Source: a virus
DNA length: 27,951 nt
Reading direction: 5' to 3' (one strand)
IMG/VR virus record: IMGVR_UViG_3300033144_000046
Location: 1-27,951 of that record
Shown here: positions 1 to 9,494 of the stretch, one piece after another
Layout: each line of letters opens with the position of its first letter
Position numbering within the stretch: the stretch's first letter is position 1
Program-made: the position numbers and the translations under genes
Notes under the pieces: model-generated
Database searches by the model: none
Told to the model about the DNA's origin: nothing
What the model saw: the letters and a program-made list of their open reading frames with translations, nothing else

Positions 1-507
1 ATGTCAAATGCTGGAGCAGCTACTTTTGCTGACAGCATTTCAGTTCAAGGTGACGCAATTAATTTATCAACTGATACGCTTATTGAGTATGGGTTAAGCT
101 CTGGTATAGATTACAATATTGGTGCGCCAGTCTCAGGAACAAATGCAAGGGGAGAAAGAATCTCAATGTATACCACTACAGGTATGACAGCAGGCGATTT
201 ATATGTTACAAGTGATTTTGCAGCCGCTTGGACTCCTGCTAATAATACAGATGATGACACTAAAAACATGATAGTTGTAGCTATCGGTGCTTCAAGTTCA
301 ACAGACCAGGTTTTATTAAGGGGTATATTTAGAAAAGCATCTCATGGATTTACAACAGGACAACCATTGTATGTGGGTTCAACTGATGGTCAATTTACAG
401 CCACTTGCCCAACAGCTTCAGGAAGCTTTGCTAGAGTTGTAGGATATGCTGTAAACTCAAATGAAATATATTTTTGTCCAGACAATACTTGGGTAGAAAT
501 TAGTTAA
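1..507 (+). CDS. beta-rich virion/fibre-like protein, possibly 5'-truncated
   Basis: A 168-residue protein rich in Gly, Ser, Thr and Ala, with no predicted membrane segment. The second half, about residues 105-150, has a pattern common in C-terminal domains of phage fibres and decoration proteins (from memory): GIFRKASHGFTTGQPLYVG, then a short turn and RVVGYAV. That suggests a small beta-sandwich. The ATG is the very first base of the window, so I cannot tell whether it is the true start or an internal methionine of a longer gene. The stop lies 5 bases before the methyltransferase gene, consistent with one operon. Virion protein is an inference from composition and neighbours; no specific family is recognised. 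Confidence 0.55.
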   Translation: MSNAGAATFADSISVQGDAINLSTDTLIEYGLSSGIDYNIGAPVSGTNARGERISMYTTTGMTAGDLYVTSDFAAAWTPANNTDDDTKNMIVVAIGASSSTDQVLLRGIFRKASHGFTTGQPLYVGSTDGQFTATCPTASGSFARVVGYAVNSNEIYFCPDNTWVEIS

Positions 508-512
508 TTCTT

Positions 513-1076
513 ATGGCTTATAAAGATAAAAATTTAGTATTTACAGCCGACTCTATTTACTTTGATTATGATGGTGAAAAGGAGTTTGTAATGATGGAAT
601 GGGAAAGACCTTTAATGGAAAAACACGCCAACTATGTTTGTGAAAATGGAGGAGATATTTTAGAGATAGGTTTTGGTATGGGAATAAGCGCTGATTATAT
701 ACAAGCAAATAACATAAACTCTCACACTATTGTAGAAATTCATCCTGATATTTTAAACAAAGCTTATGAATGGGCTGAAGGAAAATCAAACATTAATATA
801 ATAGCTGGGGACTGGTATAATTCTTTAGATGTATTGTCAACTTATGACGGTATTTTTTTAGACACTTTTGGTGATGATAATATTGATAAATTTAACAACC
901 ACATAAACTCTTTAGCTAAATCAGGATGTAAAATTAGTTGGTGGAATAATTCCAGAAAACCTAATAATAATACTTTAAATATAGAGGGGGTTACATATGA
1001 AGAGGTAAATGTAACACCTCCGTTAAATGGATATTTTGACCAATCAGTTTATTATTTACCTAAAAAACAAATATAA
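513..1076 (+). CDS. GAMT/RMT2-like SAM-dependent methyltransferase
   Basis: A 187-residue class I methyltransferase. Motif I is ILEIGFGMG (residues 49-57), the acidic end of strand 2 is HTIVEIH (E75), and motif IV is YDGIFLDTF (D117). The details match the guanidinoacetate N-methyltransferase / yeast Rmt2 group rather than a generic methylase: VMMEWERPLM (26-35) aligns with VMERWETPYM of human GAMT, EIGFGM with EVGFGM, DGIFLDT with DGILYDT, and the PP...YYLP ending with PP...YYAFP (alignment by eye to remembered sequence). E31 and D117 fall where GAMT places the Glu and Asp that hold the guanidino group. At 187 residues it is shorter than GAMT (about 236), missing mainly the N-terminal extension. 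The likely reaction is SAM-dependent methylation of a guanidino group on a small molecule or a protein arginine; the substrate is unknown. The next gene starts directly after its stop. Confidence 0.8.
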   Translation: MAYKDKNLVFTADSIYFDYDGEKEFVMMEWERPLMEKHANYVCENGGDILEIGFGMGISADYIQANNINSHTIVEIHPDILNKAYEWAEGKSNINIIAGDWYNSLDVLSTYDGIFLDTFGDDNIDKFNNHINSLAKSGCKISWWNNSRKPNNNTLNIEGVTYEEVNVTPPLNGYFDQSVYYLPKKQI

Positions 1077-1775
1077 ATGGCTACTACTACTATATATGCA
1101 AGCTCAAACACTAACGGTAGAGGAATCGTAGCTGTTGCTAATAGTGATTGGGATGATGCGATAAACGCAACCTCGGGAAGTGTTCAGTCATCTACATCAA
1201 ATAATTTTGCTATTAGAGCTGGAGCTGTAACAGGAAGGGGTGGAACAGACTATAGGGTTTGGCGTTCTTTTGCTTATTTTGATTTATCTTCAATCACAAC
1301 AACAATTACTGCTGCAACTGTAAAAGTACAAGGATCAGGAAGTATTAACAATGGAGGTACTGCGAAAATGTATGCAAGTACAGCATTCGGAAACAATGGT
1401 ACTGCTTTAGCTGGTTCAGATTTTGATAACGTATCAAGCACCTTATATTCAGCTACTTCTTTTAATGAAATAACTTGGAATAAAAGCGGGCAAAATTCAT
1501 TTGTAGTAAACGCAACAGGTATTTCTGCTATGAACACAAACGGTATACTAAACGTTTGTTTTCGAAATGACATGGATGTAGACGAAGAAGAGCCAGAGTC
1601 TGATCATTATTTAGGAATTAATTTTGGTACAAGTACTCAGAGTTTTAGAATACAAGTTGTTATTACTCATAATGATCCAGGATATGGGAATAAGGTTATC
1701 GATGTAGCCGCTTCTTCAATAGGCGAAATAAACGAAGTGCCGACAGCTAATATTGAGAAAGTAATAGACGCATAG
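1077..1775 (+). CDS. DNRLRE-like beta-jelly-roll virion/fibre protein
   Basis: A 232-residue, Ser/Thr/Asn-rich protein. Around residues 60-86 it reads RVWRSFAYFDLSSI, then ITAATVKVQGS, which fits the DNRLRE/CBM96-type pattern of an Arg followed by an aromatic, FDLS, then I-x-A-A-x-[LV]. That fold is a beta-jelly roll found in surface and carbohydrate-binding proteins. A later FNEITWNKSG segment (about 139-148) is also typical of it. The last 30 residues form a repetitive Val/Ile/Ala linker like those at the ends of Bacteroidota phage appendage proteins. It begins directly after the methyltransferase stop and ends with TAG just before a promoter-like box. Likely a head or tail fibre, or a receptor- or glycan-binding virion protein; the exact location in the virion is unknown. 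Confidence 0.6.
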   Translation: MATTTIYASSNTNGRGIVAVANSDWDDAINATSGSVQSSTSNNFAIRAGAVTGRGGTDYRVWRSFAYFDLSSITTTITAATVKVQGSGSINNGGTAKMYASTAFGNNGTALAGSDFDNVSSTLYSATSFNEITWNKSGQNSFVVNATGISAMNTNGILNVCFRNDMDVDEEEPESDHYLGINFGTSTQSFRIQVVITHNDPGYGNKVIDVAASSIGEINEVPTANIEKVIDA

Positions 1776-2622: not shown

Positions 2623-2847
2623 ATGGTTATAAGAAAAATTTCTATAGGCGCTGATTATAAGTCAGGAGCAATGCACTATATAGTTGGCCAAGAAGTTTTG
2701 GGAGGAAGCTATAAAATTCACTTAATACAGCATGATGAAAAAGCTAAGTCATATCAAATATGGGTAGACAAAAAATCAGAGATTTTGCTGTGGAAAGAAT
2801 TTAAAACAACACTGCCTATTTCGCTTGAGTATAATATAAACTTTTAA
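2623..2847 (+). CDS. small conserved-looking phage protein, unknown function
   Basis: A 74-residue protein with alternating beta-strand character. Notable segments are VIRKISIGADYKSGAMHYIVGQEV near the N-terminus (residues 2-25) and a hydrophobic-aromatic end, EILLWKEF...PISLEYNINF. The compact sequence without low complexity suggests a folded single domain under selection. I recall similar small proteins in environmental phages but no function. It overlaps the following gene by one base (TAATG), implying coupled translation within the pre-terminase operon. Confidence 0.65.
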   Translation: MVIRKISIGADYKSGAMHYIVGQEVLGGSYKIHLIQHDEKAKSYQIWVDKKSEILLWKEFKTTLPISLEYNINF

Positions 2848-3416
2848 TGAAATCTCCACATTCTTTTATTGTAAGACCTATTGGAAATAGAAGATACGAT
2901 AATATAAAAAAGATTGGTAGTATAGATTTTATTACCAGCACATCTGAGGAAGACCATACAGTTTCAAACAGATATGCAGAGGTTGTAGAAACTCCTATTA
3001 ATTACACAGGGGAAGTAAAAAAAGGAGACACTCTTTTAGTACACCATAATGTTTTTAAATTTTATAATGACATGTATGGTAAAAGAAAAAGCGGTAAAAG
3101 TTTTTTTAAAGAAGATTTATTCTTTATTGATCCTGATCAGTTTTTTTTATTTAAAAGAGGTGATAAGTGGCATGGGTATGATAAATATTGTTTTGTAAAA
3201 CCTGGCAAGGTAAGAGATAGTTTTTTGAAAAAATCAGGAACTGTTGAGCCTTTAATTGGAACTTTAATTTACTCTAATGCTCAACTTAAAAAGAAAGGTC
3301 TCAAAGAAGGAGATGTTGTTTCTTATCAACCAGATTCTGAATATGCATTTAAGGTAGATGGAGAGACTTTGTACAGGATGTTTACAAACAATATAACTCT
3401 TAAATTAAATGGATAG
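2847..3416 (+). CDS. possible GroES-like co-chaperonin (tandem barrel)
   Basis: A 189-residue protein with features of the GroES/T4 gp31 fold. Near the N-terminus FIVRPIGNRR (7-16) resembles the GroES IRPL start. A flexible 25-40 stretch sits where the mobile loop would be. RYAEVVETP (42-50) and VKKGDTLLVHHNV (57-69) correspond to GroES GEVLAVG and VKVGDIVIF. A second, weaker copy follows: GTLIYSN (138-144), GLKEGDVVSY (151-160) and VDGETLYRM (170-178), like GroES NEEVLIM. The length is about twice that of GroES (97), so two fused barrels are plausible. If right, it would cap the host GroEL to fold capsid protein, as T4 gp31 does. The evidence is by-eye pattern only. The ATG of the next gene lies inside its last codons (8-base overlap). 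Confidence 0.4.
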   Translation: MKSPHSFIVRPIGNRRYDNIKKIGSIDFITSTSEEDHTVSNRYAEVVETPINYTGEVKKGDTLLVHHNVFKFYNDMYGKRKSGKSFFKEDLFFIDPDQFFLFKRGDKWHGYDKYCFVKPGKVRDSFLKKSGTVEPLIGTLIYSNAQLKKKGLKEGDVVSYQPDSEYAFKVDGETLYRMFTNNITLKLNG

Positions 3417-3684
3417 CAAAAGTATAAAACTACAAATTATAAACGCAGGGGAACAAGCTGTAAATCAGCTTATTAAAGTTGCAAAAGAAGATATAATTAA
3501 ATATGACAAAGATGACGAGTTGGCAGCTGACAGATTAAAAAATGCAGCAGCTACTAAAAAACTAGCTATATTTGATGCTTTTGAAATTTTACAAAGAATT
3601 GAAGAAGAAAGAGATATTTTGAATGGAGTAGAAAAAACAACAACTAACACCCCTAAAGGATTTGCAGAATCAAGATCAAAATAA
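3409..3684 (+). CDS. small helical protein before terminase, candidate small terminase subunit
   Basis: A 91-residue, predicted all-helical protein. The core is DELAADRLKNAAATKKLAIF (residues 36-55), then DAFEILQRIEEERDIL, a pattern of two amphipathic helices ending in a coiled coil. It overlaps the GroES-like gene by 8 bases, and its 3' end overlaps the proposed TTG start of the large terminase by 23 bases. Small terminase subunits sit in this position and are often of this size and helical, so TerS is a reasonable guess. However, I see no clear helix-turn-helix, so the assignment rests on position. The alternative is a packaging or head accessory protein of unknown role. Confidence 0.45.
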   Translation: MDSKSIKLQIINAGEQAVNQLIKVAKEDIIKYDKDDELAADRLKNAAATKKLAIFDAFEILQRIEEERDILNGVEKTTTNTPKGFAESRSK

Positions 3685-5902
3685 ACTATATCGAATTGTA
3701 AACAAGAAAGTTCCTAAATCTGTTATAGCTACAAAAAACAGAGCAAGAAGCTGGCAGTATGGGTATAATGAAAAATACGATATAGTTGTAATTTCTAAAG
3801 ACGGAACAATAGGGGATATTTACAATATTAATAATTTACTTATTGCTTTACCCTCCACTCCTAAACTAAATTCTGAGTTAAAAAAACAAGACCAATACTG
3901 GAAGTCTTTTGACATCCCAAAAGAAATTAAAAAACTTCAAACTATATTTCACTGGCATCAAACCCCTCCTCACTTTAAATCTAAATGGGTTGATTTTATA
4001 GAAAAAGAATTTGATAAAAGAGAGCAAGGACACTGGTTTTTGAATAATGGAACACCTACATATATTACAGGAACACATTATATGTATTTACAGTGGACAA
4101 AAATAGACGTAGGTCATCCAGATTTTAGAGAAGCAAATAGGATATTTTATATATTTTGGGAAGCATGTAAGGCTGACTCCAGAAGCTTTGGTATGTGTTA
4201 TTTAAAAATAAGACGTTCTGGGTTTTCTTTTATGAGTTCATGTGAAGGGGTAAATCAAGCTACTATTACTAAAGATGCACGTATAGGTATACTTTCTAAA
4301 ACAGGTGCTGATGCAAAAAAAATGTTTACCGATAAAGTTGTACCAATATCTAACAACTACCCTTTCTTTTTTAAACCTATACAAGATGGTATGGATAAAC
4401 CTAAAACCGAACTAGCATACCGTGTTCCCGCATCTAAGATTACTAAAAAAAATATGTATGAAACTAATGATGAAGAATTAGAAGGATTAGATACTACTAT
4501 AGACTGGAAGAACACTTCTGACAACTCTTATGACGGTGAGAAACTTCAATACTTATTACATGATGAAAGTGGTAAATGGGAAAGACCAGAAAACATTTTA
4601 AATAACTGGCGTGTAACTAAAACGTGTTTACGTTTAGGAAGTAAGATAATAGGAAAATGCATGATGGGTTCTACTTCAAACGCTTTAGACAAAGGAGGAG
4701 CAAACTTTAAAAAACTTTATGAAGACTCTGATTGTTTAAAAAGAAACGCAAACGGACAAACTAAATCTGGACTATATAATTTATTTATACCAATGGAGTG
4801 GAACTTTGAAGGGTATATAGATAAATATGGAATGCCTGTATTACATACACCTAAACAACCAGTTGAAGGAATAGATGGTGAGCCTATAAAACTTGGAGCA
4901 ATAGATTATTGGAAAAATGAAGTAGAGTCTTTATCACAAGATGCTGATGCTTTAAACGAATTTTACAGACAGTTTCCTAGAACAGAATCACATGCATTTA
5001 GAGATGAAAGCAAACAATCTTTGTTTAATTTAACTAAAATTTACCAGCAAATAGATTATAACGATTCATTAATAAAAGAACATTTTATAACTCAAGGATC
5101 ATTTCACTGGCGTGATGGAGTTAAAGATTCTACAGTTGTGTGGAGTCCGAATAGAAATGGAAGATTTTTTGTAACTTGGCTACCAAGAAAAGATTTACAA
5201 AACAGAATAATAACTAGAAACGGAAGAAAGTATCCTGGAAACGAACATCTTGGTTCTTTTGGATGTGACTCGTATGATATTTCTGGTGTTGTTGTAGGAA
5301 AAGGTTCTAACGGATCTTTACACGGAATGACTAAATTTAGTATGGAAGAAACACCTAACAATCATTTCTTTTTAGAATATATAGCTCGACCACAAACTGC
5401 TGAAATATTTTTTGAAGAAGTTTTAATGGCTTGTGTGTTTTATGGTATGCCAATATTGGCTGAGAACAATAAACCTCGTTTATTATATCATTTTAAAAAT
5501 CGTGGCTATAGAGGATTTTGTATGAATAGAGTAGATAAAAGATTAAATAAGTTATCAAAAACTGAGCGTGAGTTAGGAGGTATACCTAATTCTTCTGAAG
5601 ATGTAAAACAATCACATGCTTCAGCGATAGAGTCGTATATAGAAAAACATATAGGCCTTGATTTAACAGGTGAATATAGAGATAAAGAAGATATGGGTGA
5701 AATGTATTTTCAACGTACATTAGAAGATTGGGCTAAATTTGACATAAGTAATAGAACTAAATTTGATGCGTCCATCAGCTCTGGTTTAGCTATAATGGCT
5801 AATCAGAAGCACTTATATACACCGACTAAAGAAAAATCAAAAATAAGCGTTAACTTTGCACGATACAACAACTCAAGCTCTTACAGTCAATTAATAAAGT
5901 AA
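3662..5902 (+). CDS. terL: terminase large subunit (TerL)
   Basis: A 746-residue DNA-packaging motor: ATPase domain then nuclease domain. A Walker-A-like segment KIRRSGFS (182-189) lacks the usual G-x-G-K-[ST]. Walker B is LQYLLHDE (295-302) with D301 and the catalytic E302. Motif III is MGSTSN (335-340). FPRTESHAF (438-446) is the usual linker between domains. The RNase-H-like nuclease has GCDSYD (D536) and a second acidic site near AENN (E601). It pumps DNA into the procapsid through the portal. The only start compatible with the full N-terminus is TTG at 3662, inside the preceding gene; an upstream in-frame TAG lies near 3629-3631, and no in-frame ATG comes before about residue 140. The portal gene begins directly after its stop. 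Confidence 0.9.
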   Translation: MQNQDQNKLYRIVNKKVPKSVIATKNRARSWQYGYNEKYDIVVISKDGTIGDIYNINNLLIALPSTPKLNSELKKQDQYWKSFDIPKEIKKLQTIFHWHQTPPHFKSKWVDFIEKEFDKREQGHWFLNNGTPTYITGTHYMYLQWTKIDVGHPDFREANRIFYIFWEACKADSRSFGMCYLKIRRSGFSFMSSCEGVNQATITKDARIGILSKTGADAKKMFTDKVVPISNNYPFFFKPIQDGMDKPKTELAYRVPASKITKKNMYETNDEELEGLDTTIDWKNTSDNSYDGEKLQYLLHDESGKWERPENILNNWRVTKTCLRLGSKIIGKCMMGSTSNALDKGGANFKKLYEDSDCLKRNANGQTKSGLYNLFIPMEWNFEGYIDKYGMPVLHTPKQPVEGIDGEPIKLGAIDYWKNEVESLSQDADALNEFYRQFPRTESHAFRDESKQSLFNLTKIYQQIDYNDSLIKEHFITQGSFHWRDGVKDSTVVWSPNRNGRFFVTWLPRKDLQNRIITRNGRKYPGNEHLGSFGCDSYDISGVVVGKGSNGSLHGMTKFSMEETPNNHFFLEYIARPQTAEIFFEEVLMACVFYGMPILAENNKPRLLYHFKNRGYRGFCMNRVDKRLNKLSKTERELGGIPNSSEDVKQSHASAIESYIEKHIGLDLTGEYRDKEDMGEMYFQRTLEDWAKFDISNRTKFDASISSGLAIMANQKHLYTPTKEKSKISVNFARYNNSSSYSQLIK

Positions 5903-8338
5903 ATGAAAGAAGTTAAAATAAATATTAAGTCCGCTGTATTTCCAGATCAATTCGCTTCAGATGCGCAGAAAAAAACAGAAGAATTTGGATTACAGGTAGG
6001 ACAAGCTATACAATACGAGTGGTTTAGAAAAGATGGTGGGAGCTGTAGGTTTTATGACCAATGGACTGCTTTTAATAGATTAAGATTATATTCGAGAGGA
6101 GAACAATCTATAGCTAAATACAAAAATGAATTAGCTGTAGATGGAGATTTGAGTTATTTAAATTTAGACTGGACTCCTATTTCGGTTATACCAAAGTTTG
6201 TAGACATAGTTGTAAACGGAATGTCGGACAGATTATTTAAAGTAAAAGCGTATGCGCAAGACGCTATGTCTGCCGAAAAAAGAAACAAATTTCAAAACAT
6301 GATAGAAGGACAAATGATTGCTCGTCCTTTATTAAGACAAATAACAGAAGATTTTGGAGTAGATGTATTTAGTGTTCCTGAAGAAACTTTACCTAATGAT
6401 GATCAGGAGCTGGAACTATACATGAATTTAAAATATAAACCAGCTATAGAGATAGCTGAAGAAGAAGCTATAAATACTTTGTTAGCCGAAAATCATTATG
6501 AAGATTTAAGAAAAAGAGTAGATTTAGATTTAATGGTGTTAGGTGTAGGAATGACTAAACACCAATTTTTATTAGGTCAAGGGGTAACGGTTGATTATGT
6601 TGATCCAGCTAATGTTGTTTATAGCTACACAGAAGACCCTTATTTTAAAGACTGTTTTTATTGGGGTGAAATAAAAACTATACCTATAACTGAGCTAGTT
6701 AAGATTGACCCAGATATCACAAATGAACAAATGCAAGAGATATCTAAATACAGTCAATCGTGGTATGACTATTTTAATGTAGCGCAAATGTATGAGAACA
6801 GTATGTTTGCAAAAGACACATGCACATTATTATATTTTAATTATAAAACAACAAATACTTTTGTTTACAAAAAGAAAGAAATAAGCGAAGGAGTATATAA
6901 GACTGTAGAAAAAGACGATCAATTTAATCCGCCAGAAGAAATGATGTCGGAAGGAAAGTTTGAAAAAGTAGAGAAAAGAATAGATGTATGGTATGAAGGT
7001 ATAATGGTTATGGGTACTAACATTATTTTAAAATGGGAGATGATGGAGAATATGGTAAGACCTAATTCTGCAAACCAATACGCTTTACCAAATTATGTTG
7101 CTTGCGCACCAAGAATGTATAAAGGAAACATTGAATCTCTTGTAAGAAGAATGATTCCTTTTGCTGACTTAATACAAATGACTCATTTAAAAATTCAACA
7201 AGTCGTAGCAAGAGTAGTTCCTGATGGTGTATTTATAGATGCTGACGGATTAAACGAAGTTGATTTAGGAACAGGCAACGCTTATAATCCAGAGGATGCC
7301 TTAAGACTGTACTTCCAAACAGGTAGTGTTGTTGGTAGAAGTTACACTCAAGACGGAGAGTTTAACAATGCAAGAATACCTATTTCTCAACTTACTTCTA
7401 ACAGCGGGCAAAGTAAAATGCAAATGCTTATAGGAAATTATAATCATTACTTAGATATGATTAGGCAAGTAACAGGATTAAATGAAGCAAGGGATGGTTC
7501 TACACCTGATCCTAACTCTTTAGTTGGTGTTCAAAAACTAGCAGCGTTAAATTCTAATACCGCTACTAGACATATATTACAAGGTAGTTTGTATATAACT
7601 AAAACTTTAGCTGAGGCTTTAGCTATAAGAACTGCTGATATTTTACAATACTCTGATTTTAAAGATGAGTTCGCAATGCAAATTGGTAAATATAATGTAG
7701 CTATTATAGAAGAAATTAAAAATTTATACCTGCATGATTTTGGAATATTTATTGAAATGTCTCCAGATGAAGAAGAAAAAGCTATGTTAGAAGCAAATAT
7801 ACAAATGGCTTTATCTCAAAAAGATATTAGCTTAGAAGATGCAATTGACATAAGAGAGATTCATAATTTAAAAATGGCGAATCAATTATTAAAAGTCAAA
7901 AGAAAAGCGAAGCAAGACGCAGAACAACAACAGCAAATGCAACAACAACAAATGCAAGCTCAAATGCAAATGCAACAACAACAAGCTGCAGCTCAAGCTG
8001 AAATGCAAAAAGTCCAAATGGAGATGGAAGGTAAGATGCAGTTAAAACAAGCTGAGATAGGTTTCGAAATAGAAAAAATGAAAAACGAAGCTACTCTCAA
8101 GTCTCAGTTAATGGCTGAAGAGTTCCAATACAATATGCAAATAAAAGGCATGGAACAAAGCAATATGGATGCAAGAGAGCAAAACAGAGAGAAAGCAAAA
8201 GACAGAAGGATAAATCAACAATCTTCAAATCAATCTAGAATGATTGAGCAAAGAAAAAGAAACACTCCTTCTATAAATTTTGAGTCTAACGAGGACAGTT
8301 TAGATGGATTTGATTTAGCTGAATTCGACCCTCGATAG
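5903..8338 (+). CDS. portal protein
   Basis: An 811-residue protein of the size seen for crAss-like and related Bacteroidota phage portals. The first 120 residues include FYDQWTAFNRLRLYSRGEQ and then WTPISVIPKFVDIVVNGMSD, a typical portal entry region. The middle (about 520-600) has MLIGNYNHYLDMIRQVTGLN and NSLVGVQKLAALNSNTATRH, matching the helical stem and wing region of large portals (from memory). From about residue 674 the sequence becomes a Gln/Met-rich coiled coil, ending in a polar tail and FDLAEFDPR. Twelve copies would form the DNA-entry ring at one capsid vertex, contacting terminase and then the ring proteins. It starts immediately after the terminase stop, ends with TAG, and is followed by a 49-base gap with a promoter-like box. 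Confidence 0.87.
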   Translation: MKEVKINIKSAVFPDQFASDAQKKTEEFGLQVGQAIQYEWFRKDGGSCRFYDQWTAFNRLRLYSRGEQSIAKYKNELAVDGDLSYLNLDWTPISVIPKFVDIVVNGMSDRLFKVKAYAQDAMSAEKRNKFQNMIEGQMIARPLLRQITEDFGVDVFSVPEETLPNDDQELELYMNLKYKPAIEIAEEEAINTLLAENHYEDLRKRVDLDLMVLGVGMTKHQFLLGQGVTVDYVDPANVVYSYTEDPYFKDCFYWGEIKTIPITELVKIDPDITNEQMQEISKYSQSWYDYFNVAQMYENSMFAKDTCTLLYFNYKTTNTFVYKKKEISEGVYKTVEKDDQFNPPEEMMSEGKFEKVEKRIDVWYEGIMVMGTNIILKWEMMENMVRPNSANQYALPNYVACAPRMYKGNIESLVRRMIPFADLIQMTHLKIQQVVARVVPDGVFIDADGLNEVDLGTGNAYNPEDALRLYFQTGSVVGRSYTQDGEFNNARIPISQLTSNSGQSKMQMLIGNYNHYLDMIRQVTGLNEARDGSTPDPNSLVGVQKLAALNSNTATRHILQGSLYITKTLAEALAIRTADILQYSDFKDEFAMQIGKYNVAIIEEIKNLYLHDFGIFIEMSPDEEEKAMLEANIQMALSQKDISLEDAIDIREIHNLKMANQLLKVKRKAKQDAEQQQQMQQQQMQAQMQMQQQQAAAQAEMQKVQMEMEGKMQLKQAEIGFEIEKMKNEATLKSQLMAEEFQYNMQIKGMEQSNMDAREQNREKAKDRRINQQSSNQSRMIEQRKRNTPSINFESNEDSLDGFDLAEFDPR
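7923..8000 (+). repeat. CAA-rich low-complexity tract in portal gene
   Basis: A run of CAA/CAG/CAAATG codons encodes a Gln/Met/Ala-rich stretch of the portal (about residues 674-700) with blocks such as QQQQMQQQQMQAQMQMQQQQ. It is the start of the C-terminal coiled-coil barrel or crown and is prone to replication slippage. Confidence 0.75.
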
Positions 8339-8363
8339 CTTAAATTTATATTAAATTAAGTAT

Positions 8364-8371
8364 TAACTTTG
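8364..8371 (+). promoter_or_regulatory. Bacteroidota-type -7 promoter box TAACTTTG
   Basis: TAACTTTG fits TAnnTTTG and lies 16 bases before the scaffold ATG, in a very AT-rich 49-base gap. No clear TTG is seen at -33. With the hairpin after the capsid gene it would define a scaffold-capsid transcript. Confidence 0.5.
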
Positions 8372-8387
8372 TAAAAAATTAAATAAA

Positions 8388-9494
8388 ATGGAATTAAAAG
8401 TAAAAGAAGTAAAATTCGAAGAAGAAAAATCTACTCAAGAAATTGAGGCAAAACTATTAGACGAACACGCTAAAAAGCAAGAGGCTCAAGAAGTTACTGA
8501 AGAGCCAGTTGCTGAGGTAAAAGAAAATGTTTCTGATGTAAAAGAAGAAACACAAACTCCCGTGTCAGAGTTAAGTGACACAGATGTTCTTTCATATATT
8601 AAAGAGAGATATGATAAAAACATAAATTCAGTTGATGAATTGTTTGCTCAGAAAAAAGAAAACGAACCATTACCTGAAGATGTTGCAGCATATTTCAAAT
8701 ATAAAAAGGAAACTGGTCGTGGCATCGAAGACTTTTATAAATTACAGAAAGACTACGATAACATGGACGGTGACCAACTGTTAGCTGATTATTATGGCGC
8801 TACCGAAGAAGGTTTAGACGCTATAGATATTCAAGATATGATGGAGGATAAGTTTAGCTTTGATGAAGAGATGGACGATCCAAAAGATATCAAGAAAATT
8901 AAATTAGCTAAAAAACGAGAACTTGCGAAAGCAAAAAAGTTTTTTAATGAACAGAAAGATAAATATAAAGCTCCTCTTGAGTCAAGTGGGGGTGGGTTAT
9001 CTGATGAACAAGAAAAAAATCTTAATGCTTATAAAAGTTATATAGAGGAATCTAAATCAGTTGAAGAGGCAAATAACAAAAGATACAACCACTTCTTGCA
9101 AAAAACAGACTCTGTTTTTAACGATGAATTTAAAGGTTTTAAATTCGATGTCGGAGAGAAGTCAATTTCTTTTAAGCCTGGGACAGCTCAAGAATTAAAA
9201 AACAGACAATCTGATGTAAATATCTTTTTAGAGAAATTTATGAAAGATGGTTTGATAGCTGATGCAGAAGGATACCACAGGTCTCTTTCAATAGCAATGA
9301 ACCCAGACAAATTTGCAAAATTTTTCTACGAGCAAGGGGTTGCTGCAACCGTAGATAATGTTGCTAAAAAATCTAAAAACATCAATATGGATGTAAGGCA
9401 AGCTCCAAAGTCTTTCTCAAAAGATGGGCTAAAAATAAGAGCGGTAGGAGATACATCAACTGGTAAAGGACTCAAAATTAGAAGTATTAAATAA
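8388..9494 (+). CDS. probable head scaffolding protein
   Basis: A 368-residue, highly charged protein immediately upstream of the major capsid gene, the classic scaffold position. The first 60 residues are Glu/Lys/Val-rich and look disordered. The middle is alpha-helical and acidic (for example DAIDIQDMMEDKFSFDEEMD), then Lys-rich, with a Gly/Ser break near residue 200. The C-terminus is basic and carries the pentapeptide GLKIR twice (347-351 and 361-365), suitable for binding the capsid protein as scaffold C-termini do in P22 and phi29. It would guide capsid assembly and then leave or be degraded; no protease domain is visible in it. It has its own promoter-like box and lies 25 bases from the capsid gene. 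Confidence 0.75.
   Translation: MELKVKEVKFEEEKSTQEIEAKLLDEHAKKQEAQEVTEEPVAEVKENVSDVKEETQTPVSELSDTDVLSYIKERYDKNINSVDELFAQKKENEPLPEDVAAYFKYKKETGRGIEDFYKLQKDYDNMDGDQLLADYYGATEEGLDAIDIQDMMEDKFSFDEEMDDPKDIKKIKLAKKRELAKAKKFFNEQKDKYKAPLESSGGGLSDEQEKNLNAYKSYIEESKSVEEANNKRYNHFLQKTDSVFNDEFKGFKFDVGEKSISFKPGTAQELKNRQSDVNIFLEKFMKDGLIADAEGYHRSLSIAMNPDKFAKFFYEQGVAATVDNVAKKSKNINMDVRQAPKSFSKDGLKIRAVGDTSTGKGLKIRSIK

Follow-up and report, generated by a model that had tools for sequence, protein, structure and literature searches.

The locus studied here raises the question of what a GAMT-like methyltransferase does among the tail-fiber genes of a phage. The window (the whole stretch of DNA that was analyzed, an IMG/VR virus record of 27,951 bases) contains, at positions 513 to 1076 on the plus strand, a complete open reading frame of 187 codons that begins with ATG. 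A sequence-only reading had taken this gene for a phage enzyme that methylates a guanidino group, had recognized four GAMT-like motifs in its product, and had called such an enzyme unusual. Based on homology searches, alignment, and the predicted structure, we conclude that the 187-aa product is a class I SAM-dependent N-methyltransferase closely related to GAMT. Its acceptor group and its target can be proposed with graded probability from its residues, its gene context, and its relatives.

Relationship to GAMT

In a phmmer search against all PDB sequences, the four highest-ranking matches are GAMT (3orh, E = 2.9e-11; 1p1b, 1khh, and 1xcj, about 2e-10 and up to 2.4e-10). This is far beyond chance, as the next PDB protein (3mgg, the best non-GAMT match) has an E value of 0.011. 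A profile of 63 family members, compared with the PDB, matches GAMT at E = 9e-30 versus 3e-8 for the next family. The AlphaFold model of the protein (pLDDT 96.1, pTM 0.92) retrieves GAMT first in Foldseek (E = 9.7e-14), and VIA-align places it on GAMT over 183 of the 187 residues (Z = 23.1, rmsd 2.2), compared to Z = 16.2 for the next fold. The kinship proposed from the letters of the DNA was thus borne out by profile search and by structural overlay, and no other methyltransferase class displaced GAMT from the top of either the sequence or the fold ranking. PRMT7 occurs in the Foldseek ranking far beneath GAMT (E = 5.9e-6). No PRMT is found among the profile sequence matches up to E = 0.1, an absence from a hit list that is not in itself proof. 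Pfam and NCBIfam yield generic methyltransferase matches, all below threshold.

The likeness to GAMT (3orh, 1xcj, 1khh, and 1p1b) extends over the whole-chain fold at 21 to 25% identity and includes the VMxxWE motif, the E46/D135 pair, the G-F-G-M SAM loop, and conserved tryptophan at two further positions. All of the motifs were located in the 187-aa translation: VMMEWERPLM at residues 26 to 35, EIGFGMG at 51 to 57, DGIFLDT at 112 to 118, and the C-terminal PP (169 to 170) and YYLP (180 to 183). The proposed correspondence of the C-terminal motif holds only in part. Its PP aligns with P214-P215 of GAMT, but the tyrosine pair of GAMT (220 to 221) is matched by Y174-F175 and not by YYLP. In the phage family, a median of 22 residues lies between strand beta 6 and the PP motif, apparently about 20 fewer than in GAMT (43 by the human GAMT row used for the 105-homolog alignment and for the tree, a row that matches the PDB alignment over the part between VMERWE and residue 163 or so). 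Such a shortened loop would suit an enzyme that is more open toward its substrate.

Two acidic residues had been proposed to occupy the guanidino-binding positions of GAMT, and the alignment of 105 homologs (the distinct, near-full-length family members among the matches listed) supports this placement. E31 (codon at positions 603 to 605, plus strand) corresponds to human GAMT Glu46 and rat Glu45 and is glutamate in 103 homologs and aspartate in 2; D117 (codon at 861 to 863, plus strand) corresponds to human Asp135 and rat Asp134 and is aspartate in 104 of the 105 and asparagine in 1. In rat GAMT, the role of Glu45 is guanidino binding. Asp134 of the rat enzyme accepts the proton that the substrate gives up as the methyl group is transferred (PMC12471008). 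Further GAMT positions are retained across the 105 homologs (W30, H71, E75, W87, and W101); W87, W101, and E75, together with the LEIGFGMG loop, are invariant in the family and match GAMT. A mostly aromatic pair of residues is found at positions 143 and 144. The gene evolves under purifying selection, with a dN/dS of 0.12 relative to the 89%-identical homolog in contig L003. From its family and these catalytic residues, the enzyme probably carries out SAM-dependent methylation of a guanidino nitrogen.

A facultative gene of the tail-fiber cassette

The gene does lie among fiber genes, as the earlier reading had it. Upstream, positions 1 to 507 (plus strand) encode the C-terminal part of a tail fiber whose full-length form, in the longer contig L002, has 692 aa and whose tip domain is related to Phage_cement_2 and to the tail fiber of Flavobacterium phage immuto. 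Downstream, positions 1077 to 1775 (plus strand) encode a 232-aa protein with a CBM96-like fold. Its model (pLDDT 90.8) has carbohydrate-binding modules as top fold matches (8wab and 7vbo), one of its homologs has a weak Pfam CBM96 match, and of 109 loci, 64 have a member of its family as the next gene downstream. Five bases separate the fiber gene from the methyltransferase gene, and none separate the latter from the gene for the 232-aa protein.

Of 119 contexts at the homologous loci, 113 show an upstream gene in the same orientation as the methyltransferase gene, and a one-base overlap is the spacing seen most often. Fiber tips were typed upstream in many of these loci and comprise three or more unrelated kinds (44 cement-2-like, 21 "FYWD," and 9 S74-chaperone); the other 39 upstream genes, which are untyped, include some fibers of further kinds and some non-fiber genes. 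In LR745206.1, from an uncultured 634-kb phage, the methyltransferase gene comes directly after two long fiber-like genes. Members of a second subclade are near a 2OG-Fe(II) oxygenase or unrelated genes, not fibers (L007, L036, L093, and L111; also L067). In L007 (positions 5370 to 9282), the second-clade gene is part of a run of small genes that contains at least one 2OG-Fe(II) oxygenase (PF13759) and adjoins tail genes; this run may encode a group of enzymes that modify proteins or surfaces.

Other genes near these cassettes were also recognized. The window encodes a GroES-like co-chaperonin (positions 2847 to 3416, plus strand; phrog_13932, E = 6e-22) shortly before the terminase, and L003 has GroEL (positions 2983 to 4536) and a GroES-size gene after the same cassette. 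In L004, from the 634-kb phage, two genes that by eye resemble RNA-ligase-type nucleotidyltransferases (positions 6552 to 8141, minus strand; KLDGSN and KVDGAN) are located right after the methyltransferase gene on the opposite strand.

When loci were sought from the fiber tip without regard to the methyltransferase, 21 could be assessed. Five have the order tip, methyltransferase, and CBM-like gene, eight have the CBM-like gene directly after the tip, and eight have another gene after the tip; near-duplicates are present (L142/L143/L154, L155/L156, and L157 to L159), so that these counts are not independent events. Searches anchored on the downstream gene added three more trios and L140. In total, trios found without using the methyltransferase occur in L140, L142, L143, L154 to L156, and L164 to L166, and the fiber tip and CBM-like pair occurs without it in L144 to L147 and L157 to L160. 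As the same pair exists without the methyltransferase, we consider the latter a facultative gene of the fiber cassette. By terminase, the window is nearest to MW202828 (73% identity) and Flavobacterium phage elemo (45%); neither phage has a homolog in the corresponding region. Given these phages and the cassettes without the gene, the enzyme is not needed for assembling such fibers. Genes that take the place of the cassette after the tip (L148, 410 to 1408; L149, 2833 to 3840; L150; and L152) begin with V..VA..SI.K, a pattern shared with the repeats at the C terminus of the CBM-like protein. Judged by these sequences, the fiber partner genes look modular.

Distribution and phylogeny

The claim that such a methyltransferase is unusual in a phage needs revision, as more than 100 homologous genes are present in IMG/VR, where they are common in uncultured phage contigs, and viral GAMT had already been catalogued. 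The family is widespread among uncultured phages of aquatic origin. A phage origin of the gene is supported. A protein search of IMG/VR retrieved copies with 100% and 89% identity in other contigs, a scan for codons of EIGFGMG gave at least 120 stretches, and a profile search of all loci gave at least 123 matching ORFs, repeat fetches of the same contigs included. Dereplicated members share 25 to 89% identity with the window protein. Among 50,697 annotated phage records, tblastn found a homolog (45% identity) in LR745206.1 only. This fits with the result from PHROGs, which has no family for the window methyltransferase and gives scattered weak matches for 63 homologs.

No homolog came up in an initial scan of bacterial genomes; a second scan returned ten loci, of which seven are GAMT-like (L127 to L133). 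The other three (L134 to L136) were rejected, as they look like an unrelated methyltransferase, TrmB-like by eye. We draw only on the broad split of a 72-protein tree into two groups, because many of its inner branches are weak and GAMT sits on a long one. One group comprises 53 phage rows, including the window, and is mostly fiber-linked. The other contains phage genes mainly of other contexts, mixed with GAMT-like genes from metagenome-assembled genomes (MAGs) of Chlamydiae and Aerophobetes, and human GAMT and gammaproteobacterial genes join it more loosely. Among cellular genes, those nearest to the second phage clade are from Chlamydiae/Aerophobetes MAGs (L128, L129, and L133) and have a long insert. 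An alphaproteobacterial MAG (L127, 4323 to 5528, plus strand) encodes a fusion of apparent TPR repeats with a GAMT-like domain that branches basally to the phage clade. This architecture may hint that the cellular relative acts on a protein. Tandem pairs of GAMT-like paralogs occur within single phage contigs (L119, 6425 to 7763, minus strand; L030, 5959 to 7273, minus strand).

Possible substrates

It is distinctly unlikely that the gene is a creatine AMG, that is, a true GAMT or another guanidino methyltransferase that would act during infection on a free metabolite (guanidinoacetate, arginine, or a guanidino compound of the host). GAMT is the nearest solved family, and in a global-ocean study viral GAMT (K00542) was annotated as a creatine-pathway gene and found to be 85.4-fold enriched compared to microbial homologs (PMC11360552). 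That gene, from Arctic Ocean viruses, has the same family assignment and is from marine viruses, and it probably belongs to the same family, a likeness taken from the published description of nine virus populations (PMC11360552). There, creatine was read from annotation and abundance, whereas the gene context of the window family points to the virion. Unlike GAMT, the phage form occurs within tail-fiber operons, a location not expected of a metabolic gene, has the apparently shorter region after strand 6, and lacks detected creatine-pathway partners. In 48 gene-carrying records, including the 634-kb phage, the amidinotransferase family PF02274 (GATM) was not found and the positive control matched, although these records are mostly fragments and a host could supply the amidinotransferase. 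A search of gene-carrying records for a guanidino kinase gave no match, but neither did its positive control. BlsL of blasticidin S biosynthesis, which has reported similarity to GAMT, acts on a guanidino group that is not that of guanidinoacetate (PMC5572114). BlsL is a Streptomyces secondary-metabolite enzyme, unlike the phage fiber-cassette gene, and we liken the two by description only (PMC5572114).

The fiber context would also suit a GAMT-fold N-methyltransferase acting on a non-guanidino group of the fiber or surface (a lysine, N-terminal amine, or amide, or an amino sugar recognized by the CBM-like protein). Class I methyltransferases switch substrates easily, and the mostly aromatic pair at positions 143 and 144 could suit many of them. 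We consider such a target unlikely, as the putative guanidinium-binding residues E31 and D117 are kept in nearly all of the 105 divergent homologs. Modification of host proteins or the host surface, leading for instance to superinfection exclusion or a changed receptor, would link the gene to fibers since both match the host receptor. The several unrelated fiber tips are what a gene tracking a receptor, and not one fiber, would show, and host protein methylation goes up in phage-infected Cellulophaga (PMC13288928). This is nonetheless quite improbable: expression with the fiber in one late operon would come late for a block of superinfection, and the studied Cellulophaga phages are without this gene. 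Methylation of DNA or RNA, the usual role in phages, is scarcely credible. The rRNA adenine dimethylase family gives a weak, sub-threshold Pfam match (E = 0.0014) and also follows GAMT in the profile search (1e-5), but GAMT is better by more than 20 orders of magnitude in E value and by 7 Z units in structure, and the 187-aa protein has no DNA- or RNA-binding extension. The profile and fold rankings led us to reject this identity.

We tentatively favor an arginine of a fiber protein as the target, with a probability somewhat short of even. This preference draws on the likely translational coupling, the fiber linkage of the main clade, the absence of PF02274 from the 48 records, and the methylarginine reported in virions. 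Operon position by itself is no proof that a neighbor is the substrate, and linkage to several kinds of tip could equally mean a target elsewhere than the fiber. Among the arginines of the fiber tip and the downstream protein, none is specific to loci with the methyltransferase, and conserved ones persist where the enzyme is absent. A GRGG motif in the downstream protein, considered as a PRMT-type target, was discarded because it is also present in loci that lack the gene. Two further points count against a fiber target: the second subclade lies away from fibers, and the phages with measured methylarginine are without the gene and were believed to rely on host enzymes.

On this reading, podoviruses of the Flavobacteriia type, as well as many further uncultured phages, have the gene as a facultative member of the tail-fiber operon, where it is probably translated together with the upstream fiber gene. 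The product, presumably an active enzyme of the GAMT lineage, would use SAM to methylate an arginine on its guanidino group, most likely in a coexpressed fiber protein (the fiber itself or its CBM-like partner). E31 and D117 would grip the guanidinium, and D117 would take the proton. Yeast Rmt2, a relative of GAMT, is a type IV (delta-N) protein arginine methyltransferase, and this is the kind of reaction that we propose for the phage enzyme. Methylation would then alter binding by the receptor-binding apparatus or the way in which it is recognized.

Implications for phage protein methylation

Arginine and lysine methylation has been measured on proteins of Cellulophaga phages, including a tail fiber in free virions, where the methylated arginines are R23 and R580 of phi18:1 gp52 (PMC13288928). 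The first report of such methylated arginines and lysines on phage proteins dates from 2026; its phages, phi38:1 among them, encode no known methyltransferase for this modification and were taken to rely on host enzymes (PMC13288928). The terminase of phi38:1 belongs to the same family as that of the window (36% identity), making this phage a distant relative by terminase. The phages with measured methylarginine, and phi38:1, have no GAMT-like gene detectable by tblastn in the 50,697 phage records. In the open-licence literature, we found neither a GAMT-like family linked to fibers nor an arginine methyltransferase encoded by a phage described.

The GAMT-like family is a concrete candidate enzyme for phage protein methylation, and many uncultured phages have it. 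A broader proposal, which we regard as doubtful, is that widespread and previously undescribed phage protein arginine methyltransferases, built on the scaffold of GAMT and not that of PRMT, modify receptor-binding fibers, and that the published viral "creatine" genes are misread members of this family. If the fiber is indeed the target, the most virus-enriched "metabolic" gene of the ocean catalog (GAMT; PMC11360552) would be a virion-modifying enzyme and not one of creatine synthesis.
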